Shown: piece after piece, positions 7,562 to 64,000 of the stretch
Position numbering within the stretch: the first letter of the stretch is position 1
Layout of the letters: every line of letters begins with the position of its first letter
Origin: Lutraria lutraria
Taxonomy: Eukaryota > Mollusca > Bivalvia > Venerida > Mactridae
Direction of reading: 5' to 3'
Assembly: GCA_964023205.1 (NCBI GenBank)
Contig: OZ026844.1
Coordinates: 9,152,416 to 9,216,415 of the forward strand
DNA length: 64,000 nucleotides
Translations under genes and position numbers: made by a program
The notes under the pieces: generated by a model
The model's database searches: none
What the model was told of the DNA's origin: nothing
Seen by the model: only the letters and a program-made list of their open reading frames with translations

Positions 7562-16837
<9,276 letters not shown>

Positions 16838-24138: not shown

Positions 24139-24215
24139 ATAGGGTCCGAATGGGGATTCAACTCAGGACCTCTTATTTCACAAGCGAGCATCTTACCACA
24201 GCACCCACTGGCAAT
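24139..24215 (-). mobile_element. tRNA-like SINE head in the 3,232-bp unit
   Basis: The reverse complement carries a box A-like gtggtaagatgctcgctt and a box B-like gagttgaatcccc, spaced as in a tRNA. It is repeated at offsets of 3,232 and 6,464 bp. The acceptor stem and anticodon loop are not convincing, so this is SINE-derived, not a working tRNA gene. Confidence 0.6.
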
Positions 24216-25174: not shown

Positions 25175-25314
25175 GTTACAGGGATTGTAACTTACCCGAT
25201 ACGGGATATACGGGTCTGTGGAAAACCATATCGGGACTCGACCTTCGGTCTCGCCCCATATGGTTTTCCACAGACCCGTATATCCCGTATCGGGTCAGTT
25301 ACTAACCCTGTAAC
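25175..25314. repeat. 140-bp palindrome (hairpin) in the 3,232-bp unit
   Basis: The core arms run acccgatacgggatatacgg onward to ccatat. They are perfect over 38 bp and separated by a 26-bp loop that itself holds gaccttcggtc. Imperfect pairing extends outward through gttacaggg/ccctgtaac. Identical copies lie at 28407-28546 and 31639-31778. It is probably a fold-back MITE. Confidence 0.9.
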
Positions 25315-26750
25315 TATTAATAAAGGTAGTAATATATATGTCGACTTATTTCAACAAACCCGTATGTCAAATCGCATTTGAAGTTTTGAAGTTAGGCATT
25401 AGGTTTGTGGAATTTGGGTTACCCTATGTAAAAAATGAAACCAAAAACACAATATCGCCAAAAAATGATAGAAAAGCCGGCGAGTGGTTAATTCTCCAAA
25501 CAAAAACGTTAAACTTTAGAATCCCTTGATAATAAATTTTCGACAAAAGCGGTAACTATAAGAGCAAAATATTGGTTTAATAGATAATCAGTAACACGAG
25601 GACTTCGTCTGTTTAGGTTTATATTTATTTGTACTTGTTATCAGTTAAGTTGACAATGATTTTATTTACAATATACAATCTTTGATTTTTTCCACTTGTG
25701 TTCATACGTTGAAGTCCCTCTGTTTTTTTGTGAATTTTCAATACCCAAGTATTCATTTATAAGATGGACGACCACTTCGATCTTTGTTTTTTATCAATTT
25801 ATTTATTTACACAAATATTAGAATCACTACGCAGTGTATCTACTTTGAGATAAAACAAGCGAAGTCTTATAATTTGATAACAATTCTATAATTGAATTTA
25901 TCTATAGACTTGTTACGGTGAAATTGGTCAATAATTGAGTCAACATTGAGACAACTTGGATAAAGGTATCGATACAATTAATAATGTGATAGATCAGACT
26001 ATATAAAATACGTGTGTCGTAAGGTCGTCTGCTCTGCTTTATAAGTATGAGTTTTGTGTCCTGTGTTGTATATTTACGTTCTTTCTTCAATGTCGTTCTC
26101 GACAATTTACCCATTCTTATCCACCCGTTAACCATTCCCACTTCCTTCATTGTCACTATTTCGAAATCACAAGAAATCTCATTTATCAAGCGCACTGTTT
26201 CTCGACAGAATATGTTTGTTTACGATCGGCAATTTGGCCAGTAATTCAAATCGCTTAAACGGTTATAAATCACATTTATATCTACGTAATCGTTTTATTA
26301 TGACAACAACTATACACATAGATAAAAACTAAAGTCTTATTTTGTACATTAGATGGAAATTTAGGAGACTTGGTGGTATGTTTTGAACTACTTTTTAGAA
26401 GTTGACAGAGACGTTAAACTGGTTCCCGTTCCATCATGCAGTGCACCACATACAAGTTAACGGGAACCAATTAACAGACACGTACGCGAGGCGCGACGAA
26501 CGGCAACTCTGGGTAGAGATGAAATTCGTGTGTTAGAATCTCGGCTCCGCCTTCCTATATTTCAGGGACGAATTGTTCGTGCCCCCGCCCAAACTACCGA
26601 GCCAAGTATATTTTGTAATCTGTTAAGAAAAAACACAGGAATGGGGATAATTAGATATGTATCGGTGATTTACACCGGGCATGATAAAGAACCAGGAAAA
26701 GCTATTCGAAATAATACTTAGGATATAAATGCCCGTTTTTCCTGCATCTT

Positions 26751-29700: not shown

Positions 29701-29982
29701 AATTAACAGACACGTACGCGAGGCGCGACGAACGGCAACTCTGGGTAGAGATGAAATTCGTGTGTTAGAATCTCGGCTCCGCCTTCCTATATTTCAGGGA
29801 CGAATTGTTCGTGCCCCCGCCCAAACTACCGAGCCAAGTATATTTTGTAATCTGTTAAGAAAAAACACAGGAATGGGGATAATTAGATATGTATCGGTGA
29901 TTTACACCGGGCATGATAAAGAACCAGGAAAAGCTATTCGAAATAATACTTAGGATATAAATGCCCGTTTTTCCTGCATCTT
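26751..29982. repeat. 3,232-bp tandem repeat unit, copy 2
   Basis: Same length and content as copy 1. The junction is catctt-gctgac. It carries T where copy 1 has G (26935) and G where copies 1 and 3 have T (29035). Confidence 0.97.
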
Positions 29983-32900
29983 GCTGACTAATTTGGTCGA
30001 TGATATAACAGAGCGAAAAAGGGCATGTACGAAAAAAATATGAAATTAAGACTGAAGTGCAGCTATTAAGGATTTCGGTCTGTAACAGCTTTCATTACTT
30101 TTATTCCTTTCACCGTCCCATTATACTTTTTTTATATATTTGAAGTGCCACACCCCCACTTATCATTTTTGCCCAAATTTGAAAAAACAGGGCTTTATTT
30201 AAATAAAAATTGCACATGAAATAAGTTTTTGTAGAATTGTTTTTTGTGTTGGTTTACATTTTGGACCCATTCACAGACTCCCGTTTTCACAGAAGCAAAA
30301 ATTGCACATTTGTTCAAACAACTATAACCAGTGCCCCTGTGTGGGGTCATTCTATAAGACTTAGATCAAAAACATCTTCAAAAATATATAAACAAGATGT
30401 GAAAATATAAAACACTTTCACCAGATAGATTTTCGGCTATATAACAGTTTGAATGTGATACATGATCAGATTTTCTAAATTGCTTTAAACTAGCTTGTAT
30501 GTATACTCATTTTTTTTAAACACAAGCATGCTTCCGCTTTGATATCTTAACTAATTAATTGAGAAAAAAATGTTCTATCAAGAAAAAAATACTACAAAAG
30601 TAATAGGGTCCGAATGGGGATTCAACTCAGGACCTCTTATTTCACAAGCGAGCATCTTACCACAGCACCCACTGGCAATCAATGACAAAAGGATTCTTAA
30701 TTTAGAATTTCCATTAGAGTTTGAAATCCTTAAATGTAAAAACAGTACATAAAGTTTAGCAATAGCATTAAATTCATAACACGAGATGGCATTACGTGTC
30801 TATAATTCAGCAATTTCACGTCTACATTGTATCACTTTGTTACACAAATCTATTCACTACCACCAACACTGTTCACTACTACCTCACCAGTGACTTTCAG
30901 TTACATGACCCCAAACATGCGTTGCGCTGAGGCGCAACGCAATAATGAAACAATCTTCTTGTCAAAAACTACAATGTCTAGAGCTTAGATATTTTAAATG
31001 TACTACTGTCTAGTAGACCCGGGGGTCACTTAATTTTTTGAAAAGTGTTTTTCTTTAAATTACTAAGCTTACATATTTGGTATGTAGTATTTTGAAGAGA
31101 GCCTCTATCAACTTTAATCATTGCACCGGGGTCAAAACTGGTTCAGCCAAGGAGTCACTTGATTTTACAATTCGGCATTTGTAGGTATTGTAAGTTTTAA
31201 AAATCTTCTTTTCAAAAATAAAGCAATGTGTCGTCGAATTGACAACCCTAATTTTTGTACTAAAACGATTTCTATGGTTTGACAGAGTTCTACTCCTAAT
31301 TAAAGATTAAGATGAAAGTAGCTACACTCTTTTTCTGGTGAGCGATTGTAGGGCCACTAACTGTGGCCCTCTTGTTTCTATATCACATAGCTGTTTCTCG
31401 TATTTGAATTCGGTGTTCTAGATCCCCTTCTACATAATTATATTTTAGAACATTTACCCGTGATACATTGTAAATCACATTGGATGATTTGACGTCACGT
31501 GGTGACCTAATATATCGTATATTAGGTTAACAGAATATATTAGGTCTGTAATGGAGTCATTTATATTTAAATATTGGGTTTGTAATGGAGGCTTTTATTG
31601 GAAATGATGACGAGGAAGGTAGTCTGCGTGATATAATCGTTACAGGGATTGTAACTTACCCGATACGGGATATACGGGTCTGTGGAAAACCATATCGGGA
31701 CTCGACCTTCGGTCTCGCCCCATATGGTTTTCCACAGACCCGTATATCCCGTATCGGGTCAGTTACTAACCCTGTAACTATTAATAAAGGTAGTAATATA
31801 TATGTCGACTTATTTCAACAAACCCGTATGTCAAATCGCATTTGAAGTTTTGAAGTTAGGCATTAGGTTTGTGGAATTTGGGTTACCCTATGTAAAAAAT
31901 GAAACCAAAAACACAATATCGCCAAAAAATGATAGAAAAGCCGGCGAGTGGTTAATTCTCCAAACAAAAACGTTAAACTTTAGAATCCCTTGATAATAAA
32001 TTTTCGACAAAAGCGGTAACTATAAGAGCAAAATATTGGTTTAATAGATAATCAGTAACACGAGGACTTCGTCTGTTTAGGTTTATATTTATTTGTACTT
32101 GTTATCAGTTAAGTTGACAATGATTTTATTTACAATATACAATCTTTGATTTTTTCCACTTGTGTTCATACGTTGAAGTCCCTCTGTTTTTTTGTGAATT
32201 TTCAATACCCAAGTATTCATTTATAAGATGGACGACCACTTCGATCTTTGTTTTTTATCAATTTATTTATTTACACAAATATTAGAATCACTACGCAGTG
32301 TATCTACTTTGAGATAAAACAAGCGAAGTCTTATAATTTGATAACAATTCTATAATTGAATTTATCTATAGACTTGTTACGGTGAAATTGGTCAATAATT
32401 GAGTCAACATTGAGACAACTTGGATAAAGGTATCGATACAATTAATAATGTGATAGATCAGACTATATAAAATACGTGTGTCGTAAGGTCGTCTGCTCTG
32501 CTTTATAAGTATGAGTTTTGTGTCCTGTGTTGTATATTTACGTTCTTTCTTCAATGTCGTTCTCGACAATTTACCCATTCTTATCCACCCGTTAACCATT
32601 CCCACTTCCTTCATTGTCACTATTTCGAAATCACAAGAAATCTCATTTATCAAGCGCACTGTTTCTCGACAGAATATGTTTGTTTACGATCGGCAATTTG
32701 GCCAGTAATTCAAATCGCTTAAACGGTTATAAATCACATTTATATCTACGTAATCGTTTTATTATGACAACAACTATACACATAGATAAAAACTAAAGTC
32801 TTATTTTGTACATTAGATGGAAATTTAGGAGACTTGGTGGTATGTTTTGAACTACTTTTTAGAAGTTGACAGAGACGTTAAACTGGTTCCCGTTCCATCA

Positions 32901-33214
32901 TGCAGTGCACCACATACAAGTTAACGGGAACCAATTAACAGACACGTACGCGAGGCGCGACGAACGGCAACTCTGGGTAGAGATGAAATTCGTGTGTTAG
33001 AATCTCGGCTCCGCCTTCCTATATTTCAGGGACGAATTGTTCGTGCCCCCGCCCAAACTACCGAGCCAAGTATATTTTGTAATCTGTTAAGAAAAAACAC
33101 AGGAATGGGGATAATTAGATATGTATCGGTGATTTACACCGGGCATGATAAAGAACCAGGAAAAGCTATTCGAAATAATACTTAGGATATAAATGCCCGT
33201 TTTTCCTGCATCTT
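29983..33214. repeat. 3,232-bp tandem repeat unit, copy 3
   Basis: Same length and content. It ends at catctt and is followed by gc, the first two bases of a further unit, before a C-rich/(CT)n microsatellite. It shares T with copy 2 at 30167 and T with copy 1 at 32267, so it is a mosaic of the two. Confidence 0.97.
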
Positions 33215-33216
33215 GC

Positions 33217-33570: not shown

Positions 33571-34051
33571 CCTTGAATTAACATTACAAAAGGGGGAAAT
33601 TTAGCTTGATTATTACATGTATAATAAAGTTCCGTTGATTAAGTGACAACTTATATTAGTGTTATCACCAATAAAAACTGTGAATATCTATGTCGATCGC
33701 AACAGTTTGACCAAGTTTGTTCTCAGTTTTCTTTGTTTGAAAAAAAATCACTAGCTATAAATTCAATACATAGCAATATCAATGCTAAGTTGTTACAAAT
33801 AGTTTTAACTTTTTTTATCTGTCCAATATTTAAGTTACGGTCGATATATACCTTACCCTTATTTTTCCAATATTTGCCGTGGCATACACAATCCAAGGTG
33901 GATATTATTACAAGTAGAGTAATCGATATTTCGTATTAACATGATTTAACGTTAGCCTGTTCAGGTATATACATACTCGCTTAGTTAAGTTCAATAATTG
34001 TCTATATACGGACATGGGAATCTGTATTGTGAATTATACTTAAAAAGAAAC

Positions 34052-35344
34052 ATGTATAAACAGTTTAAGAAGTTAAATGGATTTGTAAACTCTGATGGAA
34101 ATAAACTCGTGGATAAAGTGAAACATCGAGATACAATTGACGAGGAGAGTGACTCGAAAGAAACCAAATCGGACGTAAATGATAATAAGATTCGCGTGGA
34201 TACGCTTAGCAACAGTGTAAATAGTGGTAGTCTATTAGTTCATGATGACCGGAAGTTGGTTCTACACTTTGACATCCGGAATACCGTGCTTGTAGCCGAT
34301 TCGATAACTAATGTGTCGGTTGAACAGGCCCTTAACAGCTTCCTGACTGGGGTCGTGTGGGGTCATGAGGGACCCAACGGAGAGTGGATTTGGCACTCTG
34401 ACCAAATCTCTCTCACACAGCCGGCAAGTGACGTTATAACATATTACAAATACCTAGAGAAGAAATATGTAAAAAATACAGACGATCGGACAGCACTCCG
34501 ATTAGCGACGGGTGATTTTGTTCACAGTGAGATAGGTAGTAGATTTGAACCCTATCTTCAATATCATTTAGATTTGCTCAAATGGCGGCACGATTTTGAA
34601 CATGACACTCACAACATTTTAACTATGTCCGGTCTTGACGGACAGCAATATAATTATATTGTACCTGCTTTATATAAATGTATTCACCATTTGGTCAAAA
34701 CCGGAAGAAACTTTGCAATAGTGTTCAGAACGTTCGGTTTAGATGCTCCCAATGTGATTAAAAGCTTAGAACTCGGTCTAAAAGGTAACCACCCGGGTTA
34801 TCCCGAATGCCTAGATTTAAATGTAGACCTCAATATCGGCACGGTCAAGCGAAGCGCGAAAGAACCCACAGTGTTCACAGTGTCATCTGGCTCAGACGAG
34901 AGCTCGCCAAACACTTTCGTAGGTGATAGAGCAATTTACGAAATGTTGTCACAAAAAACAGGTATCTCTGGTTTTAGAGATGACGTGAACTATTGGCTGG
35001 AGAATTCATACCATCATGAAACATCAAAACCTCACATCATCGACCCATTTGATAGTAATGTGCACCATATATTCTTTGATGATAATTTTAGAACATACGA
35101 AGATGATAGCATTATTGACGTGAGAATGTTCGAGTCACGTGATGCCAAAGACGCGCGAAGTTTAAAGAAAGAGGAAATAGCACAGTTTGATAATGTATGT
35201 ATGGTCCAAGCAGATCTCATAAAGTGTATCGAGGATGACAATTACTATGTTGATAGAATACGCGAATGTGAATCTAACTATAGTTTATTTCTAACCAGAT
35301 GGAATCGTCTTTCTAGAAGTTTTTCAGTCAATAATGTAGTGTAA
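34052..35344 (+). CDS. Intronless 430-residue protein, HAD-like (tentative)
   Basis: The open frame reaches back to a TTG at 33998, but the first ATG is 34052 with A at -3, so I start there; TAA at 35342-35344. I infer a haloacid dehalogenase-like (HAD) fold from three blocks, numbered from the ATG: LVLHFDIRNTVL (Asp at about 74, Thr at about 78) resembles motif I; FAIVFRTFGLD (Thr at about 227) resembles motif II; HHIFFDDNFR (Asp-Asp at about 343-344) resembles motif IV. The second Asp of the usual DxD is Arg, so general acid catalysis would be altered and activity is doubtful. An acidic/basic linker precedes the domain (about residues 18-60). No signal peptide or membrane segment is evident, so it is probably cytosolic or nuclear. 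The single exon suggests a retrocopy or naturally compact gene. Substrate unknown. Confidence 0.75.
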   Translation: MYKQFKKLNGFVNSDGNKLVDKVKHRDTIDEESDSKETKSDVNDNKIRVDTLSNSVNSGSLLVHDDRKLVLHFDIRNTVLVADSITNVSVEQALNSFLTGVVWGHEGPNGEWIWHSDQISLTQPASDVITYYKYLEKKYVKNTDDRTALRLATGDFVHSEIGSRFEPYLQYHLDLLKWRHDFEHDTHNILTMSGLDGQQYNYIVPALYKCIHHLVKTGRNFAIVFRTFGLDAPNVIKSLELGLKGNHPGYPECLDLNVDLNIGTVKRSAKEPTVFTVSSGSDESSPNTFVGDRAIYEMLSQKTGISGFRDDVNYWLENSYHHETSKPHIIDPFDSNVHHIFFDDNFRTYEDDSIIDVRMFESRDAKDARSLKKEEIAQFDNVCMVQADLIKCIEDDNYYVDRIRECESNYSLFLTRWNRLSRSFSVNNVV

Positions 35345-46499: not shown

Positions 46500-49400
46500 A
46501 TGCCGGACATACGCCTATTGGTAGGCAGCCTGCTCCTGATATTTGTTACAGGTAAAATATACGATTATACTTATTATTAATACGATATTTTAAATGCAAT
46601 TTCAAACTAACTGTTACTTAAAAAAAGACAAGCATAGTACATAATTTATAGTTGTATGTCTTACTTTATTTTTAGGAGCGAAAGCTCCTATAGCTATACA
46701 CCACTTTTTCTACTTATTATTTAATGACACCTCTTACATCCACGTTGCAAAAAGTACCATTTGTTGTATAAGTATACATTGCAGACTTTTTTTTCAAAGA
46801 AAGAACTCGAAGAAACCTTATGAATTATTTGAAAATTCAATAGCAGTACATTGTACATGTATATCAATAAAAATATGTTATCTTAAGATTAATCGTGTAG
46901 TCTAATTGCCATTATTTTGCCAATTAAATATCATTACTGTCTTATTATGGTTTTCTATTGTCGTATTAAAGCCGCAAATTGTTCAAACTTCCTCTCATGG
47001 CATACATACAAGACGCATTCTGTATATTAATTATTCGGTATTCATTAATTGAAGAAAACTAGCAATTTATTTACGATTAGTAAATTATTTAAATAAAAAG
47101 ATAAAAAAAATATATAAAAATTATTTACGGACAGTGCTGAAAATACACCGATGAATAACCAAAACGAGAACTTATTTTATTACTTTTTTTTCAGTGGAAG
47201 CCGGACCGTCTGGTATGTATTTTTATTAAGTATCCTACAACAACAATTTAGTAATACTCTATAACACGCTTCATAGTATTGCCAAGTGTAAATGCTTGTT
47301 TAATATTTGTATTAAGTCATTGAATTTCAACGCTTTGGTGTATATTAATATTGTCGTATTGTCAAATGTTAATTACTTTTGATGTCATCGTATTTTATTT
47401 TGATGTTGTATATTAAACAATAATGATAGATGGTTTTATTGTCCTTATTTGAAAGAAATTATAGTTTTAAAAATTCAGTATCTTTTTAATTTGTGTGGGC
47501 TTTTTATCGCTTATGCTAAACTTGCTAATGGTGTCTGTGGACATTTATCTGAATGTCATACAACATTTATGCAGCTTCCATATATTATGCGAGATATTGA
47601 AAGTACAATATGTTTAAAGGATGTACAAATCACACCGTGGGGCAGGTTTGTTGCGATGGGAACCTACAGCCTCGTACTGGAGAAAAAACATGTTGCTGTG
47701 GAGACGAAAGTTTTGACCCAACCAATAAAATATGCTGTAAAGGAAAGATCATTGGAAGAAAGAACATGTTTAAAACAGTTGATTGCTGCTGTACGTATAT
47801 ATGAAAGATCAGTTAAAGCAATAGTAGAAATCTTTTAAAAAATAAAGATACATTGAAAGAAATATAATATTCACTGGAGCTCAAGTTGCACGACCAGCTA
47901 GGGTCATTTGACGACTGCCAAGCGTGGGTCCCGGCTTTCCTCCTAAAAGCTGTCAAAACATTTAAATTTGGGGCACACAACAACGAAAGCAAGGTTCCTG
48001 AAAGCACGTGCAGACTAGAAGGAAAGCCGGGACCCACGCTTATTTTTTGTCACTTCCGCCAATCGAAAAAATGGCGAGTGTGCTACCTTGGTGTTTTTTA
48101 TACACTCAACAAGGAAAAAATTAAAGATTTTTCTTTCGACAGATTTGCGTTGTTTGATGAGATAAATTGAAAAATAACGTCTATTAATATATAAAAATCT
48201 CGGAATCGAGTGCCTATGATTCGAACGCTATGAAATGACTTTAATTTTTAGCTTTAATTATTACTAGTAAGTGCTGTTAGATAATTTCACTTACATTTAC
48301 AGCATGTAACTTCCCGAAGATAGACATCATTTTCGTGTTGGATTCATCCGAAAGTGTTAAGGAAGATAATTTCATTTTAATGCTGGACTTTGTGTCTGAC
48401 TTAATCTTGAATGAAAACACGAGACTTGGCCCAGATGGCATACAAGTAGGAATTCTTTCATACTATCATTTTGTGTCAATACGATTCCATCTGAACGCCT
48501 TCAAGGATCACCTGGAATTCGAAAAAGCGGTTAAAAATATCCCTTACACACGTGGTAGCACCAACACTGCCTTAGGAATAAGGTAATGGACACAATGTCT
48601 TTTCAAATTATATCCTTCCGTTACAGTAAAAAAATCATTAATTATAAATAAAGCTTTTTTATAAGAATGACACTTTTAATTCATATCTATAATAGAAAAT
48701 GTATGTTTTACTAAAAAAAAATTGAGTGAGTCAAATTTATTTGAATTTACAAGTATATTGTCTGAATGTAAAGAAAATGAGAGCCGTCAGATTTTCAATT
48801 AAAATGCACAAGCTAAATGCACCAATAAAACTAGTTTATAAATACGTCTATCGATTGCTAGAGTTGCTATCGACGAAATGCTGACAGAGAAAGCAGGAGA
48901 CCGACCAGATGTAGACGATATCATGTTTGTAATTACGGATGGACAGTCAGACAATGCCACTGAGACACTTGCAAGTGCCGAGTCGGCCAAGCAGAAAGGT
49001 GTGAGGTAAAACCTTTTTTAAGTGTTTGTTTAGTTCCATATGGTTTTGACCTTATTTTCTGAGGAGTGGGATGTTCCATTGTAAATGTTGCTGTCAGACA
49101 TCCGTCTAATATTCTATCCAGTTGATCTACCTAGTATTGTATGTCGTCCCCTTAGAATTAAAAGGGCATATCTTGCTCATTCATACTTGTCAGAGAGACC
49201 CTTTTACTACTATGATAACGGTATACACTACTCCTTTGCCACAAATGACTACTCCAGTCGTCTACACACGAAATTGACTACACTTGACTGGTTGCAATTT
49301 TTTTGTCAAATTATGAGGGAGAAACATATACATTCTTCAGTTCTTGGTCTCTGTCACAAATCGATGATTTAAAGAACAGTAGTCATGTACCTCATAACGG

Positions 49401-52400
49401 GACTAGATTTTTGTGGGACCTATTCAGGGAAAGGATCACATTAAAGTTTTGAATGCCCTGAACTTGTGTTTTACATCGACTTTATCATCGCTGTTTCACT
49501 ATGTTTATTTTTGCAATTGAAATAAAATCACAATCAAACTAAAGATACAAATATCACAATTCAGTTGTCATGGACAAACAAACAAACCAAACATTATACT
49601 CTTGTGGATTGTTCATAGCAGTGGGGCTTTTTCAAGGCCTTATTACGATGCACCAGAATAAGAAACTCCTGAGTGATTCACCATTCTGCATTCATTTACG
49701 TCATTGTGGAATGGCTTAATTTTTTGGAACGGTCGCGAAATTATATTATAATCTTTCAGAGTAATAACTATCGCTGTTGGTGATGAAGTGGACCAAAAGG
49801 AATTACGTGGAATAGCATCAAAACCTTCAGGACAAAATATGTTCAGCGCTAAAGACTATTCAAGATTAAGCAAACTTGAGCCAATGATGTTTTCGACAAT
49901 GTGCGAGGGTGAGTATGATGCTTTTTTTACTGTTGCCGGTGGTTATATTTTAGTCTCAAAACCAATTCAAATGAATTACCTTTTTTCCACATGGCTTCCA
50001 ACATTTGTGTTATAGGATAAGCTTAAAACAGAACATCGTAGATCACGAACAACACATTCAGAAGGATATTTCGACTTTTATTCGGTATTTATTCAAAGTA
50101 GATCGAATTTTGCACAAAAAACATAATTGTTTCCTTGGTCAGGATGATTATACAAACAAATACCTTGGAAAGGCAACTGTTTACGTGTAAAAATATCTTG
50201 AAATGTTAAGAAAAAGTTCTGTAGTCAGATAAATTATGCACAAACGTGGCACAATACAAAACACACAAGTTACAAAGGCATACTGAATTACTTACTTTTA
50301 CTCACAATACCATTCCTTATTTCTATGCAATGGCTAAAGTGAAGGGTTCAATAAAGTGGATATAATGAAGCAATTATGTGAGTTCTCGGGGAAGCGTCAT
50401 AACTAAGTTCTATTGTATAAATACAAAAAAATATACATGCATATTTGATTATAGACGTATGTTTATGGTAAGGTTGTTTTGGGTGTTGCATTGTATGTAT
50501 ACATTGCCTATAAACCGATTTTCTGATTAGTCATAATATGTGATGGCAAATTGCCAACAATAAACAGATCATCATCGAGATTGGATTAACACTGGTGATG
50601 AAATATAAGTTAATGTCCAATATTGAGTACATTGATAAGTTTATCCTAACCCTTGGAACATTTGTTATAAGACTTAACATAATCTATTACTAAATATAAA
50701 AAGATGCCCAGTGCAAACAGTTCGTCACCGATCCAGAAACAACAGAAAACTAATAGGGGGAACGTTCATTAGTGCAAAATACATAATTACCATTCAATGT
50801 GAAGTTCAAATTGCAGACGAAGATGGTTTATGTGGAGCATGGTACCTACTACTGTAACTTTATACTTTATTAAAGTTTTTATCAATTTTGCACTCATGAC
50901 TATATCGTGAGACACATATCAAACATGTTGCACGTGCTTATCGTGTATGAAGTAAAGATATATATGTATGTCGCGTCGGAAGTTCCGATATAAACTGTTT
51001 GTTAATGTTCGGATCTTAAAAAACAATATTCAATATTTTAGATCGACCAATTTTGGAAGAGGACGGTAAGTTGTTTTGGACGAACATTATTTTATTTATT
51101 ATTTTAGATTTCTTCATTAGTCCAATTGTGTTTGGTTATATTTCGTTTCTCTCCTAAGTTTATTTTCATACCTGTACGTATTTACTGATTTATGATTCTC
51201 TGCGATGAGTCCTTGTAATGCAGTTAACACAAACATGAAATGTAATAATTCAACAATTGAAAAGGGCAAATTTCTGTATTTATGACGTTTTCGATGTTTG
51301 TCAAACTTTGCTAATTTCTTAAACGTATTATGTAATTCAAACATATAAAACAATGAATCGAGTGTGATCACTGATCAGATTCAAAGCCATCTCATTGTGT
51401 TCGTGTCTCTGGGCGGACGTTAAAAATCGATTGTCAGCACGTTAAACGCCGTTTTCAGAGGCCGGTTCACACAGACATTTTCCTGAACCATATTGTAACC
51501 AGTATACTCGCCGGTATACTAACTTACACCTCCAACAAGATCCGGCAACCAGCTTTCGATCATATCTGTTATTTGCAGTGTTTTTACTGGAAATAACATT
51601 TGACATTCAATTACTAGTATTCATCATTCCCCCTGTGAATTACATATTGTTTTTATTTAATTATCTGTTTATCATTATTATCATTAATCTGTGTCGTTTT
51701 TATTATTTTGTTTCAATGAGGGAGAGTGTGAGGTTAATTTACGTTACCCCCCCCCCCCCCCTGTTGCAGAATGTTCATACCCTTTTGGAAGACTGAGTTT
51801 TGTCTCAATTTACTCGATGCTTAATAAAAAAATATCATCTACTACGTAGTTGCTCATAAGAAAGCTGGTATTTTCTTTATATCTAATCATCTAATCACGA
51901 TATTACATACGTCTTTATATTAAACTTCTTCCTTAACAAATTATATGCTCTATTTAGCTACCTTTGAAAACTAAACGCTTAAATTCTTTAGTACCACTTA
52001 CTCCTAATAATTTGTGTTCTGTCTCTAGTTTCTATGGTCCTAATGTTTCTAAGATTTATTATTTAATCTCGTTTATTTATCTATGTATTTTTTTATTTTT
52101 GTTTCCCAAGGGGTAAATTAGTGATTTGGCCTTGTTCAAATCCCTAGTAGCTTAGCTGCTCACCGTTATAAGGCGGTCAGTGTTTTGTAGCCAGTATTTT
52201 GTACGTATCTACGTGTTTGTGATAGGCTTTGGTTGAAGTTTTTGAAGAAGGTAGTTTTTTGGGAAGGTGTGATTTTTTGTAAGCGTTTTGTTTTCGGAAT
52301 CCGTTCAACTACAGCAAAGCCTCGTCATGCTTACACCCCACATTCGTCGACACCCCGGTATTAGAGAAGTTTTTGATAGGACAGATACATTGTCTTTAAT

Positions 52401-55400
52401 CTTCATCTGACAATTTTATCAGAAATACGGACATCCCGCTATTCCAGTATCATGGACACTAATGACAGTATCAACATGTATATTAACACTTCAATTAACC
52501 TCATTAATACGGACACTTGTTATCCAGACATATTTCATCAGTCATAAAAAGTAACTCTATATGCCCCTGTATGAGTGAAAGTGCCAAACGTGGCATGATG
52601 TCAATTTGAAGGTTTTTATTTTGCATTTATATAAGGTGTTAATTACCCTTGTAAATCCAAATTGTTAAGATATCCAAGATATCCACAAGTTTGTATTTTG
52701 AGCAATTATTTTATCAAATTTCAATTAATCTTTTATTACAATCTTATCAGCTATATCTGATGAATCTAGAAATCGTACAACTATGGGAAACTGTAAAATC
52801 TTGCACATACAATATGTACATTCCACTCGTCTCTGGATGAGCTCCTTTATTGTTGACACCCCCTTAAAATGGTTTACTGTCCGTAATTTAGATGTTTTAC
52901 AGTACGCGCGTATATTTCAAAGCAATGAATCTGGGAAGATAAAATGTGTGTCTCTCATTATTTTTTAGAATTCCGTTGTGGCAGCCAGCCTTACCGTCCA
53001 GACACTCACATGTGCTGCCAATGGTCTGTGGCCCCAAAAGTTGCCGGTGATCGAACTGAATGTTGTGGTACCATGACGTATGATCCGACGAAACAGATAT
53101 GCTGTGCAAACGACCATATATTAGATCTAATACAAGGTGGAAATACACAATGCTGTGGTCTAGAAGTATATGATAGCAAACGACAAATATGTTGTGGACA
53201 TACGGTATGTACATTCTTGAAGGATGGTGCGACTATTATCACATATCATATCGAAAAAAGTGTTATATTTTGCAGTATATTTGAACTTCATCCATTAAGG
53301 GTATGGTTTTCTGATGAACGCTACAGACAATAAACGAAACGGACAAGTGTTTTAGTATTTAAACACTTGGGTTTTTTATACATAATACTTAGCTTAAAGC
53401 CCCATTAGCATATAAATTTATCGGTTGTAATAGTTTCTGTTAGTCCGGTGTGTTTTCCTCACGTACACACTTAATAGAAAGAAAAAATGTTTCCAAAACC
53501 ACTATCGTATTTTTTCAATATCATTGAAATAAATACTATTTATAGAACAGCTGTGTTTCCAGCAGTCAAGTTATGCACACGTCGTATTTAATGACGTCAC
53601 GCACTCTACATATTTCCAGTTTACAAAAGCAAAAATCACAGTGAAATGAGTGTTTTAAGAATAAAATAGGGCTCGTTTCGTCGGTAATAATTATCTTGGG
53701 ATAATATCAGCAATTGTTTGTTTTTTGCATATATGTTTCTATAGCAAAAAGCTAATGGGACTTTAAATATGTTCCATGAAAACATGAAGGAATTTGATAG
53801 GACTTTACATTACAGAAACTTTGTCATAGCAAACATGAAATGCAATATTATTTCGTGTGTACTGAAGTGTTTTTAATGTCCATACACATTTTAACAGGCA
53901 CTCATATGTTCGGGCATAATGTTGATTACGGCCAAAAAAATAGAGAAAATACTTTGCAAAATGTTCCACAGCCATAAAAATCCACGAAGGAATGAATATA
54001 GAATTAAATCCTATTATAAGATTATCTATCCCATAACAGTATGTTACCATGAATTTATCAATCAAACGTTTTGCGTTGTCAAACAAAGCTTTGTATTGTT
54101 TCCACCATTCCAATCATAATCTTATTATGCAACAGATCTTCTTGTAAAGACATATGTTTACAGATCAGAAGGTGTTAAACATAACGCTTCACCAAATTGC
54201 TACACGAAACAAAACACGTGGAAATTACAAAAATAAAAAAAAACAATGCAACATGCTGAAAATCACATTTCGCTAGAGGTGTATCGCTTGTGTACTTGAC
54301 ACGATACTTCAGCTTTGGTTTGACAAGTACTGTAGCCGTAAACTATCACACACCAAACTTAAATCAGTATGGCTCACATTAAACTTAAATCAGTATGGCT
54401 CACATTAAACTTAAATCAGTATGGCTCACATTAAACTTAAATCAATATGGCTCACACCAAACTCAAATCAATATGGCTCACACCAAACTCAAATCAATAT
54501 GGCTCACATTAAACTTAAATCAGTATGGCTCACCAAACTCAAATCAATATGGCTCACTTAACTCAAACCAACATGGCTCACACCAACCACAAACCAGCAT
54601 GGGTCACACAAACATTTATGTAATTTAAACGAATTAATATTAGTTATTATATATTACCTGACGGTGTTCCAAATTGACGTTTTAACTCCGCTCGGATAAT
54701 CATCTGTGGTGAAGAAATTATACACTTGTTTAAAAAAGGCATTCAATCACCATCGATCGAAAGTTTTTTAATACAAATAATAATAAAATAATATAAATAC
54801 AATTTTTAAAATGCAATCTTTTTATTATTATAGGTTCAGCCGTTAGTGGCTGGCAGCGACACACATTGTTGCGGACACGAAAGTTATGATCCCATGGAAA
54901 GACTTTGTTGTCAAGGTGCGTAGTTCTTACTTTCTTTGTCATTGTTTAACATAGGATTATATATTTTACTTTTTCTGCCAAACAATGCACGCTATTAGGA
55001 GGTAAAACAGTTATATACAAACTAAACAGAAAATACGTAAATTTAAGGGAGCGCAGACATAAATCTAGACTTATTCATGACAATCTAGTGGCAAATAGTA
55101 AATGCCCATTTTGAAAGTTCAAAAACTCTCTAGAAGATTATACATCAGCGACAAAATAGCTTTCGTCAGCTCACATGTACAACGTATTTAGCTAACACAT
55201 CATTTTTCTCACAACAACGTACTTTGTACATGGTTTGTAGGTATGATATTTCCCGCACATGTACATCCTATCTGTTATCACTGTGGAGATGACGGACACG
55301 AAATACCACAATTTGACCCAAATGTCAAAGTATGCTGTAACGGAAAACTTATGCCGGCCGTGGCTGGAAATCTAACATGTTGTTGCAAAGGCAAAGCTTT

Positions 55401-58400
55401 TGACCCATCTGACAAAATATGTTGTGCCGATGTATTGCAAAACAGAAATGGTGGAGATATTTCGTTGTGTTGCGGTGAAAATAATCTAGATCCAACAAAG
55501 GAGATTTGTTGCCATGGTGCAGTTCAGCCTTTTCGAAATGATAAGATTTCCAAATGCTGTTACCAACGTAGTTTTGACCCAGAAATACAAATTTGTTGTG
55601 AAGACTTACAAATTTTGTCAAAAAAGCATGCTGACGATAGCTGTTGCTGCGGCAACAAAACATACAATCCTGATAATGAAGTTTGCTGCGTAGGCAATGT
55701 TCAGGAAAAGTACAAGAAAGGCACTCAGTGCTGCGGTTCGAAGAGTTTTGATAGCACACAGTTTTTGTGCTGTGATGGACGGATACAAAACCTTGCAGGA
55801 CAGAAAAGCGCAACAAGGTGTTGTGGAACAACGAGCTATGATGTTATGAGACAACTGTGTTGCAACGGAAAGCCTGTGAAGAAGGATAATAAAAATGACG
55901 TTGGATGTTGCGGTAGCAAAACATATGATCCAAAATCTCAATACTGTTGTGATGGAGTGAAAGGAAAGCTGTACAGTACTGGCACCAGATGTTGTGGAAC
56001 AAAAAGCTATGACGCAAAACGACAAATTTGCTGCGGAGGTAAATTAAGTTCAAGTAGTATGCAATGCTGTAATAACGTTATTCTCAACCCTAAAACACAA
56101 GTCTGTTGCAATGGTACATATATGCGACCGAAAGATAACAAACTTGATAATGCATGCTGCGGTAGTGCCACTTTTAACATGGAATCGCAAGTCTGCTGCG
56201 AGGGAATACCTCAAACAAAGCATAAAGGTTCTGAAATGACAAAATGTTGTGGAAGTAAGAGTTACAACCCAGATACCCATTTATGCTGTAATACAGTTTT
56301 AGTTGAAAAGCGAAAAACGAATGACAATTGGTGCTGCGGTGATACTACTATTAATACTAACAAAGAGATATGTTGCCGAGGGAAACCTAGCGCAATAAAG
56401 GAGAATATCGACGACACATTTTGTTGTAAAGAGGAAAGTTTTAACATGGTTACAGAGATGTGCTGTTCAGGAAAGATAGAAATTAAGCGATCTTCAAATG
56501 ACGACTCTTGTTGCGGAAATACCACAATGAATACAAAGTCAGAGGTATGTTGTTCAGGTGTACCTCGAAAGGTTAAAGATACCCAGAGTGCGTTTTGCTG
56601 TGGTGACGAAGCTGCAGATGATAATGAACATATTTGTTGCGAAGGTAAACTGATTGCGAAAACAACCAATGCAGATGACAGTTGTTGTGGTAAAACTGCA
56701 ATGAATTCGATGACTCAAATTTGCTGTCGTGATGTTCCTCAACAACTCATCGCTGATGAATATACAAAATGTTGTCAGCATGAAAGTTTTGATTCAAGAA
56801 AACACCTTTGTTGCAATGGTGAGATTGTCCGTAAGAGAGATAATGCCGACAGTTGCTGCTGTGGGGAATCGACTATGAATCCTGAAACAGAAATATGTTG
56901 TATAGACAAAGTACAAAGATCGTTCGCAGGTAAAGACACCAAGTGTTGCCTTTACACCAGTTACAACGATGATGTTCATTTGTGCGAAAATGGAAGAAAC
57001 CTGAGAAAGAAACGAAATAAAGAAGATAACTGTGTTTGTGGAATGACAACTATGGATTCAAACAATGAAATATGCTGTGATGATGTACCACAGCCAAAAC
57101 TAGGTGATAATTCCAAATGCTGTAAGCAAGTCAGCTACAATGGTGACAATTCAGTGTGTTGTAATGGTGAAGTTATTGATAAGGTCAGTGTAGATGATGA
57201 TGTATGTTGTGGTAAGACTACAATTGATTCTAAAACTCAAGTTTGCTGCAGGGGAAAACGAAATAAGAAATATCCTGAAGGTACGTCTTGTTGTGGCGAA
57301 ACTAGTTACGGCATTGAAAGCTATTTATGTTGTGATAATGAAGTTAGACAAAAGAAGAAGCGCGCTGACGATAGTTGCTGTGGTACTACGACATTAAAGT
57401 CAGCTGATGAAATTTGTTGTCAAGGAAATGCTCAACCTGCGAAAGGTGATACAGATATGTGTTGCGGTGCTGATAGTTTTAATCCCAATACTCACATTTG
57501 TTGCGATAACACAGTTATAAAGAAAAACAAAAAAGAAGACAATTGGTGTTGTGATGGCATACCTTATGATACGAATACACAAGTATGTTGTGACATGACA
57601 GTACAATCAGCAAATGGTAATGTCGAGCAATCTCGATGTTGCGGACGACGAAGTTATAACAGTGAAACACATCTTTGTTGCGATGAGACTTTGTTGAAGA
57701 AGAAGAATGGAGATGATGACTGGTGCTGTGGAAATATTACATATAATACGAAAGCTGACGTTTGTTGTATGGGAATGTTTAAACAACCTCGATATGGTTC
57801 GAAAACTAAGTGTTGTGGGGAAAATAGTTACAACAGTAATACACAGCTCTGTTGCAATGACAACATTTTTGATAAGGAAACTAGTGACGATGACGTATGT
57901 TGTGGTGAAACTCCAATGAATTCAAATCGTGATATTTGTTGTCAAGGTCATGTCCATCAAAACGTTGTCGAGGAATTTACTCAATGCTGTGGAACTGCAT
58001 CGGTTAACACAAGAACTCATATATGTTGTAGTCAACAGTCCATCAGAGCTAAACGATATGAAGAAGATGATGTATGTTGTGTTGATACGACTATGAATTC
58101 CGCGCAAGAGGTTTGTTGCAGCGAGGGACCTCAACCCGTGACAAGTTCATTTGAAAACACCGACTGCTGTAATGGACGGTCTTATGATACTACTAAACAA
58201 TTATGTTGCCAAAGTATGGTAATAAAGATGTTGAACGATGGGGATAATTGGTGCTGCAATGGGGTTTCCATGAACACAAACAACGAGATGTGTTGTAATG
58301 GAATAAAACAACCTCGTGCTGCTAGTGGAAACACACGTTGTTGTAAAACTGTGAGCTATGATCCGGACGAACAGTTATGTTGCAACGGTACAAATTTAGT

Positions 58401-61400
58401 TGAAAAGAACAAACCGGATGATAATATATGTTGCGGTGATCAGGCCATGGATACTAGGACCCAGGTGTGCTGTTTGAATACGCCAAGTAAACGATCGGGT
58501 GGTGAATATGCTAAATGTTGTGGTGATGAAAGCTATGATTCTAAATCACACATGTGCTGCGAAGGAGACATTGGTGATTGGAGAGTTGTAGAGAAGAAAA
58601 GTCAAAAGGACGATTCTTGTTGCGGAAATACTACTATTGATACCGATAGAGAAATGTGTTGTGATGGAAATCCCGAAAAGGGTGGAAGAGATACTCAATG
58701 TTGTCATGGCAAGGGTTACAACAGCCGCGATTATATTTGTTGCGATGGCTTTATAATAGAGAAGACAAATAACGATGATGATAGTTGTTGTGGCATAGGA
58801 GAAGATGCGGTCCCAATGAACGGCAACAAGGACATATGTTGTCTAGACAATAAACAGCAACGCACTGGTGGTGCTGACACTATGTGTTGTGTAAATATTG
58901 CATACGATCCTAAATCACAATTATGCTGCGACGGTACCGAAGTTATTACAAAATCTAGTGATGATGATAATTGTTGTTGTGGTCCTTTCCGTTCAATGAA
59001 TTGTGATAGTGAGTTATGTTGCAAAAATATTCCACAACCCAATCCTGTACCAGGTAAATTTAAATGTTGTGGAAATGCAAGTTATAACACTGACACTCAA
59101 CTTTGTTGCCAAGGCAACGTCATAGAAAAAGTGGACATTGACGATAACGCTTGTTGTGGTACTACCTCTTTTAACACTCGAAATGACGTTTGTTGTCAAG
59201 GTGAATACAGACAACCAAAGAAGACCTTGTACTCGGAAGATACGGTGTGTTGCAACAAAGTAAGTTATGATCCAAGTAGCGAAATGTGTTGCAGCGGCAG
59301 AGTTGTAAATAAAGCAAATGGACAAGATAGTTTATGTTGCGGAGATAGTACAATGGCATCGAATGATTTGTGTTGTGAAGGAAACCCTCAACCAGGCGGA
59401 AGGACGTATCATTGTTGTAACAGCGTAAGTTTCGATACAAAAACACATCTATGTTGTGATGGGCTAGTAAGAAAGAAAAAGAACAGGAACGATGACGTTT
59501 GTTGTGGTTCTGATTCTACTTTAGATAGCACAGCTGAAATATGTTGTCAAGGTGTTCCTCGTGTTGTTAATTTAGAAACAGGTGATTGCTGTGGTGACAA
59601 GGGATATGATAAGCGTACTTCCATCTGCTGTTATGATTCTGACGTCATCGGGAAAGAGACCGAAGAAGACGACGTATGTTGTGGTAATAAAACTATGAAT
59701 CAAAACTTGCACGTTTGCTGTAATGACGTTAGACAATTGAAATCCGATGGTGATACTACATTGTGCTGTAAGGAAGAAAGTTATGATCCACAATTGCAGA
59801 TTTGTTGCGATGGATCTACGTTAAAAGACAAATCTCAACCTGATAACGATGGCTGTTGTGGCGATACAACATTCAATAGTAATTCAGAAATGTGTTGTGA
59901 CAATACACCGAGTCTAAGAGCATCTGCTAACTTCTTGTGTTGTGGCAAAATCGGCTTTAATCCTATTTCATACGTGTGTTGTAATGGTGGGTTAATAGAA
60001 AAGAAATCTTCATCAGACGATGCTTGTTGTGGTAACACGACGATAGATATTTTGAACGAAATTTGTTGCCAGGGCACGCCCCAACAAGGCAACCCTTCCC
60101 AATATGATTGCTGTGGCTCTGAAAGTTATAGGAAAAGTACTGAACTGTGTTGCTCATCTGGTAAGATTGTGAACAAGGGAAGGCCTAATGAAGATTGTTG
60201 TTGTGAAAATAAAGGAATGAATTCAAAAGAAGACATTTGTTGTTCTGGAAATGTTGCTAAACGAAAATCTGGCGCACTTACTAGATGTTGTGGTGAATCA
60301 GCATATAATCCGGAGAAAGAAATCTGCTGTGATAATTCTGTGAGACAAAAAACTAAAACAGATGACAATTTGTGTTGTGGAAACACAACTTTTGACGCAG
60401 ACACACAAGTTTGTTGTCATCACGTACCTCAAGAGAAAGTTTCTGGAAAGTTCACTCAATGTTGTGACATCCACAGTTTTGATCCATCTGTGGCACTTTG
60501 TTGTGACAGAGGTGTTGTCGAAAAAACTAACCCAAAAGATTCGTGTTGTTGTGGGAAAAAGACATCTTACAATCCGCTGACACAAATTTGCTGCGCTGGT
60601 CTTATACCACGAGAACTGAAAGGCTACAACACACAGTGCTGCGGAACTGAAAGCTTTGATGCAGATACGCATTTGTGCTGCCATGAAAAAATAATTGAAA
60701 AGAAAACAGAAACTGACGATGCATGTTGTGGGAAAAAAACTTATGATGGGGTATCAGAAATATGCTGTGAAGGAGAAGTTCAGAGAAGAAACGGTGGTAA
60801 ATTTTCTGACTGTTGCGGTAAAATCAGTTACGATATGGTTAATGAGATGTGTTGTAATGGAATTGTGACAATGAAGCGGAAAGAAAGGGATGATGTTTGT
60901 TGTGGGAATAATACTATGCACACTGGTACCGAAATGTGTTGTGAAGGCATGGTGAGTAAAAAATATTCCGACTTTGGTAAATGTTGCGGAAGCGAAAGTT
61001 ATGACACACGTGATCGACTATGTTGCGACGGATATAAAAGAAACAAAAGAAATGAAAAAGACAACGGTTGTTGTGGAGATACAACATTTAATTACGCATT
61101 TGAAGTATGCTGCATGGGCAAACCATCGCCTATTTTAGGACGAATTACTCTATGTTGTTTGGACAAAAGCTACAACGGTAAATTATCTATGTGTTGTGAT
61201 GGAAGAAATATTGTCGATAAAAATAATGTAAAAGATAATTGGTGTTGCGGCGATTCGACAATGAACACTCGCGATCATGTTTGTTGTGAAGGAACAAAAC
61301 AAACAAGATATGGTAAAGATACTAAATGTTGTCAAGAAGTAAGTTACGATTCTAATGTCGCCATGTGCTGCGGAACAACTGTTGTTACAAAACATAGCGA

Positions 61401-64000
61401 AAATGCAGATGTTTGTTGTGGAAGCACGACAGTTGACGTCAGTCATGAAGTTTGCTGTGATGGAATTCCAAATCCTATTGTAGACGAAGACTACACATCG
61501 TGTTGCGGAAACGGAAGTTATTCTGTTACCACGCATCTCTGTTGTGGTAATGGTGTTATCAGAAAAAAACGAAATGAAGACGACAAACTATGTTGTGGTG
61601 AATCGTCTACATACAATCCAAATAGCGAAATTTGCTGCGGTGGGAGACCACAGAGTGTATCTAATGCAGGTAACGCTGGTTGCTGCAATGACAAAGCATT
61701 TGACCTTGAGACTAGTATGTGTTGTATTGATACCGTAGTAGATCGAGGACACGAAGGAAATGAATGGTGCTGTGGTATTAAACCGTTCAACACCATTACT
61801 GAAATGTGCTGCAATGGAAAGATCGACGAAAGAAAAGGTGGAGAGAAATCTCGCTGTTGTTTAGAAAAGAGTTATGACTCAGAAACACAAATATGCTGCA
61901 ATGGACAAGTTATCGAAAAACTGAAGGTGTCTGACAACCTTTGCTGTGGTAAGAACTCGACATATGACTCAAAAAAAGACGTCTGTTGTATGGGTACATC
62001 CCCACAGCCCTTACAATGTGGTGTTAATACACAGTGTTGCCTGGACTTGAGCTTCTGTCCTCGAACTCATATATGCTGCAATAAGAAAATAGTAGAAAAA
62101 TATAATGAAAATGATGATTGCTGCTGCGGTGGCCAGTCTATGAACTCCTTAGATAATATATGTTGTCTGGGTAATAAACAGGATAGAGTGGGGGGAGAGT
62201 TTACGTCGTGTTGCGAAGAATTGAGTTATGATTCAAGATCACAGATATGTTGTGAAGGACAGGTTCGTAACAAGAGAGGAAATAATGATGACACATGTTG
62301 TGGATCTGGAGAAACCATTGACTCAAAAACTGAAATCTGTTGTAATGGAGTTGCTGAGAAATTAGTTGGCAATGAATTCACCGATTGTTGTAATAGTAGA
62401 AGTTTTGATACGATATCTCAGATGTGTTGCTCTAATAAAGTTGTAGATAAAAACGAGGACGAAGACAATTGTTGTTGCGGAGTAACCTCTATAAACAGCA
62501 AAACACAAATTTGTTGCAATGGTATACCGCGATTAGCGAAAGGCGGAAAGGACGCAAGGTGTTGTGCAGACCAAAGTTACAATTCGAAAGAAGAAATATG
62601 TTGTGATAATGAAGAAATAAGAATAAAATCTAACGCTAATCACAATTGGTGTTGTGGATTGTCAACATATGATACAAAGTCTGAGATCTGTTGCAATGAA
62701 ATCCCGCAAGATCGGGTTGGTGGAAAATCTACAAGATGTTGTGGATCACAAAGTTACAACTCTGATACCCAGTTTTGCTGTGGGAAAGATATTGTCCCAA
62801 GGCGTAGTAAAACCGATAACATATGTTGTGATAAGACTCCCATTCGTTCCGACAAAGAAGTTTGTTGCGACGGAAATCCACAGCCAAAATTTGATGGCCC
62901 CACGACGTGTTGTAGAAATTCTAGTTTTAATATAAACACCCACTTGTGCTGTTTCGGTAATATTGTTACTAAGGCAAATAAGAATGATGACGGATGTTGT
63001 GGCGAATCTACATTTGATGGAAGAACTGAGGTGTGTTGCATGGGCCAACCTCAACCTATAAAAGGGAAAGATCGCACAAGATGTTGCGGCCGTGAAAGTT
63101 ATGATACTGCAAAGTCTATGTGTTGTTCAGACACGGTAGTGCAAAAATCCGATCCAAAAAGTGATTGGTGTTGCGGACAGGTACCGTATAATACAAGAAC
63201 GGATTATTGCTGTCATGGTTCAGTAATTCAACCTTACTATGGAGAGAGCACACGTTGCTGTGGAGATGTTACCTACGATGCTGATAGTCAAATTTGCTGT
63301 GACGATGGAATACACAATAAAACAAAAGACAACGACGACTGGTGCTGCGGTGGGATTCCATATAATACCAAATCCGAAGTTTGTTGTCAAGGAAAATTTC
63401 CAAGTGAAGCAGTCGCAGGAATTGCTACAAGATGTTGTCGTCGTGAGAGCTACAACCCAAGAACACATTTATGTTGCGCCGATGGAATCATAACTAAGAA
63501 TGATGAAGACGATAACGTTTGTTGTGGAGATGTAACAATGAATAGCAAAAGAGATATCTGCTGTGAAGGAAACAAGTATACATCGTCGGGTAGATCTTCG
63601 CTAGATTGTTGTGGTAAATCGGCATATGATCCAGAAGAAGCAATTTGTTGCGGAGACAAAAGGGGTGTAATACAAAAATCCAAACCTGGGGACAACAGTT
63701 GCTGTGGATTGAAAACATTTAATACTGGTGATGAGGTTTGTTGTGACCAAAAAGTAAATCCTTCGTATAACGGTCCTACTCATTGCTGTGGTAAGGCAAG
63801 TTTCAATTTGGACGAACATTTGTGTTGCAATGGAAGGCTTACCCTTAAAAGGCGATCGGGTGACAATAGTTGTTGTGGAAATACAACAATGCAATCAGGT
63901 GTTCACATTTGTTGTGATAACAATCCTGGTAAAGGAAATAAATGTTGTGGAACAGAGGCTTACAATTCCGAAGAATATGTCTGTTGTGATACCAATGATC
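46500..64000 (+). CDS. Secreted VWA-domain / galaxin-repeat giant protein (3' end beyond window)
   Basis: Exons: 46500-46551, 47195-47212, 47620-47790, 48303-48582, 48862-49005, 49760-49908, 51042-51065, 52969-53204, 54834-54915, 55241->64000. All borders are AG/GT and every phase joins (1,1,1,2,2,1,1,0,1). The product is at least 3,305 residues. The start is a hydrophobic signal peptide, MPDIRLLVGSLLLIFVTVEA. Exon 3 encodes a galaxin-type Cys-Cys module (about residues 24-80), exons 4-6 a VWA domain (about 81-271), and exons 8-10 galaxin modules to the window edge. Galaxin repeats are disulfide-rich extracellular modules first known from coral skeletal matrix; VWA domains bind protein ligands through a metal ion. 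Together they suggest a secreted, heavily cross-linked matrix or adhesive protein. Exon 7 (24 nt) and exon 2 (18 nt) are micro-exons; a further 9-nt exon at 50817-50825 is possible but has a weak donor. Function is inferred. Confidence 0.88.
47920..48041. repeat. Perfect 21-bp inverted repeat in intron 3
   Basis: aagcgtgggtcccggctttcc (47920-47940) is matched exactly by its complement at 48021-48041, with an 80-bp spacer. It lies in the intron just before the VWA exons and is probably a small inverted-repeat element. Confidence 0.85.
48303..49908 (+). other. Exons encoding the VWA domain with complete MIDAS
   Basis: Three exons (48303-48582, 48862-49005, 49760-49908) encode a von Willebrand factor A fold. 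IDIIFVLDSSES gives the DxSxS motif (Asp94, Ser96, Ser98). The second MIDAS element is Thr167 in RGSTNTALGIRVA, and the third is Asp200 in DIMFVITDGQSD. ITIAVGDEV and a final helix before MCE complete the fold. All five metal-site residues are present, so Mg-dependent ligand binding is feasible. The module layout resembles collagen-type and matrilin-type VWA domains. Confidence 0.92.
51747..51761. repeat. Poly-C tract (15 C)
   Basis: A homopolymer in the intron between exons 51042-51065 and 52969-53204. Its length may be unreliable in the assembly. Confidence 0.9.
54361..54606. repeat. 26-bp minisatellite in the intron before exon 54834-54915
   Basis: The unit aaatcagtatggctcacatt plus aaactt repeats about nine to ten times. 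The first copies are near-identical; later ones drift (aatcaatatggctcacacca) with some shortened units. Confidence 0.95.
55241..64000 (+). other. Giant single exon of galaxin-type Cys-Cys repeats (open at window edge)
   Basis: One exon entered in phase 1 stays open for 2,919 codons to the last base. Two modules of about 29 residues alternate. Module A reads CCGxxSYDxxxxLCCxG, then a linker [VI]xxKxxxxDDxx. Module B reads CCGxxTMNxxxEICCxGxPQ, then a Gly-containing linker. I picked out about 47 A-type K..DD..CC linkers, hence about 45-50 dimers of roughly 58 residues. Cys is near one residue in seven. Modules differ strongly in DNA sequence while Cys, Gly and aromatic positions hold, which points to old duplication with purifying selection. 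Many A linkers are dibasic and a few match the furin-type consensus (RKKR near 57003 and 61561). The minus-strand open frames opposite this exon are shadows of it. Confidence 0.93.

Follow-up and report, generated by a model that had tools for sequence, protein, structure and literature searches.

Can a single gene of the bivalve Lutraria lutraria encode a secreted protein in which a VWA domain is followed by thousands of residues of galaxin-type repeats and, if so, what has become of such a long array over time? A first-pass annotation of a 64,000-nucleotide stretch of this genome (hereafter the window; C13:9152416-9216415 of a 728.5-Mb assembly in 71 contigs) had proposed such a protein. It described ten exons with agreeing phases, a VWA domain with a complete metal-ion-dependent adhesion site (MIDAS), and a galaxin array of more than 3,000 residues, and, as far as it could tell, the architecture and size were undescribed. 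Here, we analyze this VWA-galaxin gene and its relatives. We find it probable that a single gene at this locus encodes a secreted protein of the extracellular matrix, ~4,390 residues long, in which a VWA head is joined to a rod chained by disulfides whose length has been conserved.

Results

A gene model joining VWA and galaxin exons recurs in a paralog

Within the window, the ten annotated exons all have GT-AG borders and agreeing phases, and together they give a stop-free chain of 3,305 residues. When the downstream DNA was read, the frame was found to extend 3.27 kb past the window edge to a TAA stop codon (67270-67272 in window coordinates). The last exon measures 12,032 nt in all and codes for 4,009 residues. 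The array is real, and the gene is larger than first claimed. The complete protein has 4,395 residues with exon 7, or 4,387 without it, and the 4,395-residue product has a calculated mass of ~481 kDa, an isoelectric point of 5.1, 591 cysteines, and 282 di-cysteine blocks. We rejected the giant exon as a chance open reading frame: among 200 Markov-shuffled versions, no open run exceeded 164 codons, against the 4,009 observed, and no version held more than 16 di-cysteine blocks, against 282 in the whole protein.

A paralog on the same contig, g8, which starts ~866 kb upstream, strongly supports the reading of VWA and array as one secreted protein. Seven g8 exons have exactly the sizes found in the window gene (18, 171, 280, 144, 149, 236, and 82 nt). 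The giant exon of g8 is 3 nt shorter than that of the window gene (12,029 versus 12,032 nt). All g8 exons join in phase, and the reading frame and both ends are conserved between the two genes. Their N-terminal parts (385 residues, exon 7 omitted) align with zero gaps and a ratio of non-synonymous to synonymous substitution rates (dN/dS) of 0.158. In blastn comparisons of the regions that precede the giant exons, similarity was confined to exons, and the introns gave no match. We rejected g8 as a haplotype copy or a recent duplicate, given a dS of 0.93, a distance of ~0.87 Mb, and introns without a blastn match. Likely counterparts of the N-terminal exons were also found by tblastn upstream of the giant exon of a third gene, g19.

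It could be argued that two separate genes, one for a short VWA protein and one for a giant galaxin, have been read as one: introns of 1.1, 1.9, and 1.6 kb separate exons 6, 7, 8, and 9. However, the exons and their phases recur in g8, their likely counterparts lie upstream of the g19 giant exon, and both domains occur in one chain in public proteins of four bivalves. We rejected the two-gene reading, which we consider highly improbable. Because g8 keeps matching exon sizes, phases, frame, and both ends, the window locus is very likely one gene for one secreted VWA-galaxin protein.

All ten exons lie on the forward strand. Exon 1 (46500-46551) supplies the start codon and a signal peptide, judged by eye (MPDIRLLVGSLLLIFVT), and ends in phase 1; its presumed partner in g8 is a probable signal exon (8333112-8333170; MANIQLFALVFLLVHVLIK) selected by a hydrophobicity filter. 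Exon 2 (47195-47212) is a microexon for VEAGPS(G), with a g8 partner of equal size and similar sequence. Exon 3 (47620-47790) encodes the first galaxin module, ahead of the VWA, and the AG acceptor of its g8 partner lies at the matching place. The VWA is divided among exons 4 (48303-48582; with the MIDAS motifs DSSES and GSTNT), 5 (48862-49005; with TDG), and 6 (49760-49908). Post-VWA galaxin modules follow in exon 8 (52969-53204; Pfam) and a further module in exon 9 (54834-54915); each of exons 3 to 6, 8, and 9 has its exact size in g8. Exon 10 (55241-64000 and on to 67272) is the giant array, supported by Pfam, unit parsing, and alignment with g8, in which two unit types alternate from about unit 10. 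A 26-bp minisatellite of ~10 copies (54349-54613) occupies part of the intron preceding exon 9; its periodic peptide frames are no coding evidence.

Exon 7 (51042-51065) has a different standing. This 24-nt segment, encoding DRPILEED, had no convincing partner in g8, and it is doubtful that it is a real exon. Since both its junctions are phase 1, we treated it as optional.

A VWA domain with an intact MIDAS precedes the giant galaxin array

Pfam scans covered the 620-residue N terminus and the window part of the giant exon. The VWA domain (PF00092) was matched at residues 88-261 (E 1.6e-38) and its MIDAS is complete (DSSES, GSTNT, and TDG, in the DxSxS / T / D pattern), in agreement with the annotation; the three motifs are readable in g8 and g19 too. 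The domain has the features of an extracellular, MIDAS-type VWA. The Galaxin_repeat family (PF24748) was matched in 4 stretches (222 bits) of the first 620 residues and in 25 stretches (1613.3 bits, against a cut-off of 28) of the giant exon. With these matches and units of ~30 residues that carry two di-cysteines each, the protein is a member of the galaxin-repeat class.

Compared with solved structures, the VWA scored best over whole sequences with collagen VI alpha 3 and with proximal thread matrix protein 1 (PTMP1) of mussel byssus (4CN8; a chain of 454 residues with two matched VWA stretches). Single-domain scores were 60.0 and 54.5 bits for PTMP1, 59.0 for integrin alpha-1, and 49.9 for the best collagen VI alpha 3 domain. 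We rejected an identity as collagen VI, as Pfam found no collagen repeat in the scanned parts. The VWAs of PTMP1 and collagen VI alpha 3 and the integrin alpha-1 I domain are broadly of the same type as ours; none of these proteins is known to have galaxin repeats. The full MIDAS and these matches suggest a domain that might grip a matrix ligand in a metal-dependent manner.

Units of the array alternate strictly between two types

Within the array, di-cysteines recur at spacings of mostly 13, then 15-17, residues. In the window part, 96 units are regular and 5 spacings are irregular; unit lengths vary from 24 to 34 residues around a typical ~29. Units of type A (SYD..HLCC...K....DDxCC) take turns with units of type B (TTMN..EICC.G.PQ....G..T.CC). 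When 98 of the 99 units of the window part were scored in a leave-one-out manner, parity was assigned correctly for 87/88 units from unit 10 on and for 6/10 before, while 50 shuffled unit orders gave a mean of 51% and a maximum of 67%. The even-odd excess of the array was reached in none of 500 shuffles. In the same test on 13 other galaxin proteins, a Lingula galaxin came nearest (10/500) and the other twelve were reached in 74-471 of 500. Both giant paralogs alternate as well (0/200 shuffles each).

The units are highly diverged. At lag 2, with the first 18 of 95 units omitted, proportions of synonymous and non-synonymous differences were 0.72 and 0.46, respectively. Pairwise nucleotide identity between units had a median of 0.46 and a maximum of 0.68. 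We rejected a recent tandem expansion on the basis of this best pair; saturation at synonymous sites and a best identity of 68% indicate that the array is old. Its window part is mildly acidic (336 K+R versus 420 D+E). AlphaFold2 predicted serial short beta-hairpins in both of two models (predicted local distance difference test scores of 94.9 and 94.6). No solved homolog of the array was found by sequence, with the window part of the giant exon as query, or by fold.

Array length is held between two paralogs and shifts mostly by whole dimers in a third

Tandem arrays usually gain, lose, and homogenize copies. In the window gene, a 12-kb single-exon array has been held within one codon of the length of its paralog at a dS of ~0.9. 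With 4,009 residues in the window gene and 4,008 in g8, the giant exons align with a single one-residue gap; 2973/4008 residues are identical (74.2%), and ~22% of nucleotides differ. Over the giant exon, dS was 0.927, dN 0.15, and dN/dS 0.164; none of the ten 500-column blocks had a dN/dS below 0.113 or above 0.211 (Nei-Gojobori with Jukes-Cantor correction, by which a dS of about 0.9 is a rough estimate and comparisons with g19 suffer from saturation). The array has evolved under purifying selection. Cysteines are kept at 563/564 positions, 379 of them with the same codon and 184 with a synonymous one. Regular-expression parsing, which drops irregular units, yielded 133 units in the window gene, 133 in g8, and 130 in g19. 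For 133/133 window units, the collinear g8 unit was the best match.

The third giant gene has diverged further. The open frame of g19 spans 4,731 residues, to which a further last exon is likely to be added; it is 44.6% identical to the window gene and keeps 531/556 cysteines. Ten gap blocks of at least 15 residues separate the two. Seven of these measure 57, 58, or 174 residues, two neighbors of 49 and 67 sum to 116, and one of 48 fits no multiple. These sizes indicate that sequence is usually gained and lost as whole A-B dimers. A collinear g19 partner was found for 107/133 window units, and it was the best match for only 14 of these. Its median rank was 3.0 for the first 20 units, 2.5 for the last 23, and 13-14.5 between, which suggests that the ends of the two arrays are homologous and that their interiors have turned over independently.

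The near-equal array length of the sister gene suggests that selection maintains this long rod, which is probably linked by disulfides. A fixed length might also arise without any function of its own, if the units were too diverged for unequal crossing-over and purifying selection acted on the frame and the cysteines. Saturated synonymous sites and the low identities between units (median 0.46, maximum 0.68) are as this account expects, and g19, by differing in whole A-B dimers (blocks of 57, 58, and 174 residues), shows that lengths are changeable. However, hardly any single-codon insertion or deletion separates the two genes (one in 4,009 residues) despite ~22% nucleotide differences, and each unit's own length is held even though units range from 24 to 34 residues within the array. 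We regard length without function as a serious contender that falls short of being probable.

The gene belongs to a giant single-VWA branch distinct from known multi-VWA proteins

We searched ~5.8 billion public proteins, within length ranges fixed by the query and among sequences sharing short words; given these limits, the lack of a giant relative elsewhere does not show that there is none. VWA and galaxin repeats occur in one chain in at least five public proteins, all from Imparidentia (four bivalves), all unnamed or automatically named and uncharacterized: two from Mya arenaria (LOC128215858 and a shorter "CO6A4-like" protein) and one each from Mercenaria (LOC123529337), Mactra antiquata (ACF0H5_014351), and Dreissena (DPMN_129998). 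They measure 734-1,995 residues. The four long ones (1,631-1,995 residues) have 3 or 4 VWAs and 22-26 regular units without A/B alternation. These multi-VWA proteins share with ours the order of VWA and galaxin, a similar pre-VWA CCCG module, and a similar C-terminal module ending in W, with 37% identity over the last 335 residues. Unlike them, the window gene has a single VWA, which lies outside the clade of theirs, and its units number more than 130 and alternate strictly. Echinoderm galaxin-repeat proteins (Strongylocentrotus, Lytechinus, Diadema, and Patiria; 1,139-1,210 residues) likewise consist of long PF24748 arrays but have no VWA listed, 20-23 regular units, and no alternation.

A maximum-likelihood tree was built from 39 VWAs, with three proteins left out and five domains each kept of two others. 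In it, the VWAs of the window gene, g8, and g19 formed one clade (96/92), the g19 domain being pieced together from separate tblastn matches with unsure junctions; 13 VWAs of the multi-VWA family formed another (96/93). Furthermore, a gene at C13:19703014-19722191, 18 kb downstream of g19, is 84% identical to the Mactra protein over the last 352 residues, from which the host is probably akin to Mactra. On the grounds of the tree and of this match, we rejected the window gene as an ortholog of the multi-VWA family; this much closer match would be the host ortholog of the known type. We suggest that a tandem copy of this gene is the likely source of the giant single-VWA type.

The genome-wide family searches scored at most 150 candidates, and gene counts are lower bounds. 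Contig C13 holds at least three giant genes, in each of which one VWA was found, the multi-VWA-type ortholog, and a multi-VWA gene with charged repeats. In the latter (C13:11411783-11447999), at least 9 VWA matches are interleaved with galaxin modules, and one open frame leads into charged repeats of 81 residues. Twenty-eight repeat starts were seen before the repeats ran off the fetched stretch, and they look coiled-coil-like by eye. In contrast to the window array, neighboring repeats are ~90% identical in DNA (26 units). Elsewhere, a 748-residue open frame of regular galaxin units (C13:34873461-34876850, reverse strand) showed no VWA, and a cluster of galaxin matches (C10:8471632-8484252, reverse strand) had several identical scores, as if made of recent tandem duplicates.

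Other features lie near the window gene. Open frames at 7472-12438 belong to a tubulin gene, which we take to be of the alpha type; the first frame, the one scanned, matched Pfam Tubulin at E 4.1e-15. A 3,232-bp unit is present in three near-identical copies (~23519-33216), with only three scattered differences between neighbors, which reflects either a very recent triplication or an assembly artifact. A 448-residue open frame (33998-35344) had no Pfam match at E 0.01. Downstream of the gene, the open frames at 71206-72990 presumably represent the reverse transcriptase of a non-LTR (long terminal repeat) retrotransposon.

Discussion

How does this protein compare with described galaxins? Coral galaxins and sponge calcarins are likewise secreted and likewise have predicted beta-hairpins, and the coral galaxin repeat also measures ~30 residues with two di-cysteine motifs (PMC2726143, PMC12419799). 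Amgalaxin has 338 residues, the galaxin of A. digitifera 19 di-cysteines, and calcarins 10-23 (PMC2726143, PMC4890752, PMC12419799), whereas the window protein has 282 di-cysteine blocks and a VWA. Its array is much longer than any galaxin in the literature compared. Among the matches listed from open-access PubMed Central (PMC) text, in the portions available, none describes a VWA-galaxin protein; no paper there was found by accession or by the Pfam number, and the available text of the Dreissena genome paper makes no link to this family. The claim of an undescribed architecture holds only in part, since VWA and galaxin are already combined in the shorter, uncharacterized bivalve proteins. 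As far as our searches go, the single VWA, the size, the strict A-B alternation, and the length conservation are new.

We propose that the N-terminal VWA, with its intact metal-ion motif, would act as a binding head, whose ligand may be a collagen or another matrix protein, by analogy with related matrix VWAs. The tail would be one continuous galaxin array of ~280 di-cysteine blocks, each in a predicted short beta-hairpin. In published galaxin models, adjacent di-cysteines join neighboring hairpins by disulfides; if this scheme holds here, the tail would be a covalently chained, tough rod. Its building block is an A-B two-unit repeat of ~58 residues with four predicted hairpins. Conserved terminal modules sit at its ends, and the end module may anchor or cap the array. 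In this reading, selection maintains the reading frame, the cysteines, and the length. Judging from the models, the array might serve as a tough spacer of fixed span, made rigid by chained hairpins and probably by disulfides, and the protein would span or cross-link matrix layers at a set distance. Gene structure, homology, alternation, purifying selection, and conservation of length between two paralogs are results of the sequence analysis, and the hairpin fold is a prediction. From disulfide pattern to ligand, tissue, and mechanical role, we infer the remaining properties from the gene and its relatives; a matrix, adhesive, or mucosal role is plausible from homology, and the protein may reside in shell, ligament, periostracum, adhesive, or mucus.

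A more specific placement is in the shell or periostracum, where the array would be occluded in mineral or frame it, as coral galaxins do. Galaxin is a component of coral skeleton (PMC2726143, PMC4890752), the galaxin-like cysrichin of a freshwater mussel has a part in shell-layer formation as judged by RNA interference (PMC10045328), galaxin is present in the Crepidula shell proteome (PMC9365450), and VWA is a core shell-matrix domain (PMC9768464). However, no VWA-galaxin protein is reported in the available text of these sources; galaxin-like proteins are also found in skeleton-less animals (PMC12419799), the published galaxin was without calcium binding (PMC2726143), and the window array is only mildly acidic. 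We consider a role in the shell matrix proper possible but on the unlikely side.

Meanwhile, a secreted galaxin could bind or control microbes, with the VWA for docking. The squid galaxin EsGal1 has antimicrobial activity and affects the growth of symbionts (PMC5216023), and galaxin-labeled transcripts respond to Vibrio challenge in hemocytes of a clam and in mussel gill (PMC4234419, PMC7772429). The giant size, the conserved length, and a dN/dS of 0.11-0.21 in every 500-column block are more in keeping with a structural part than with an arms race, and such a defense or symbiosis function appears improbable.

Taking the matrix reading further, the giant single-VWA galaxins on one chromosome might be protein rulers made of hairpins chained by disulfides. 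An alternating A-B array, more than 130 units long and length-locked by selection, would determine how far an extracellular layer extends, and paralogs would attain other spans through the addition of whole A-B dimers or through ends of charged, coiled-coil-like repeats. We offer this idea tentatively and think it rather less likely than not to hold in full. With its defined block of two units, the gene lends itself to structural work, and the set of VWA-galaxin genes on one contig can be looked for in proteomes of shell, ligament, byssus, and mucus. Because length-stable arrays coexist with the near-identical repeats of the paralog at 11.44 Mb, this gene family offers a natural test of array length as a selected trait.
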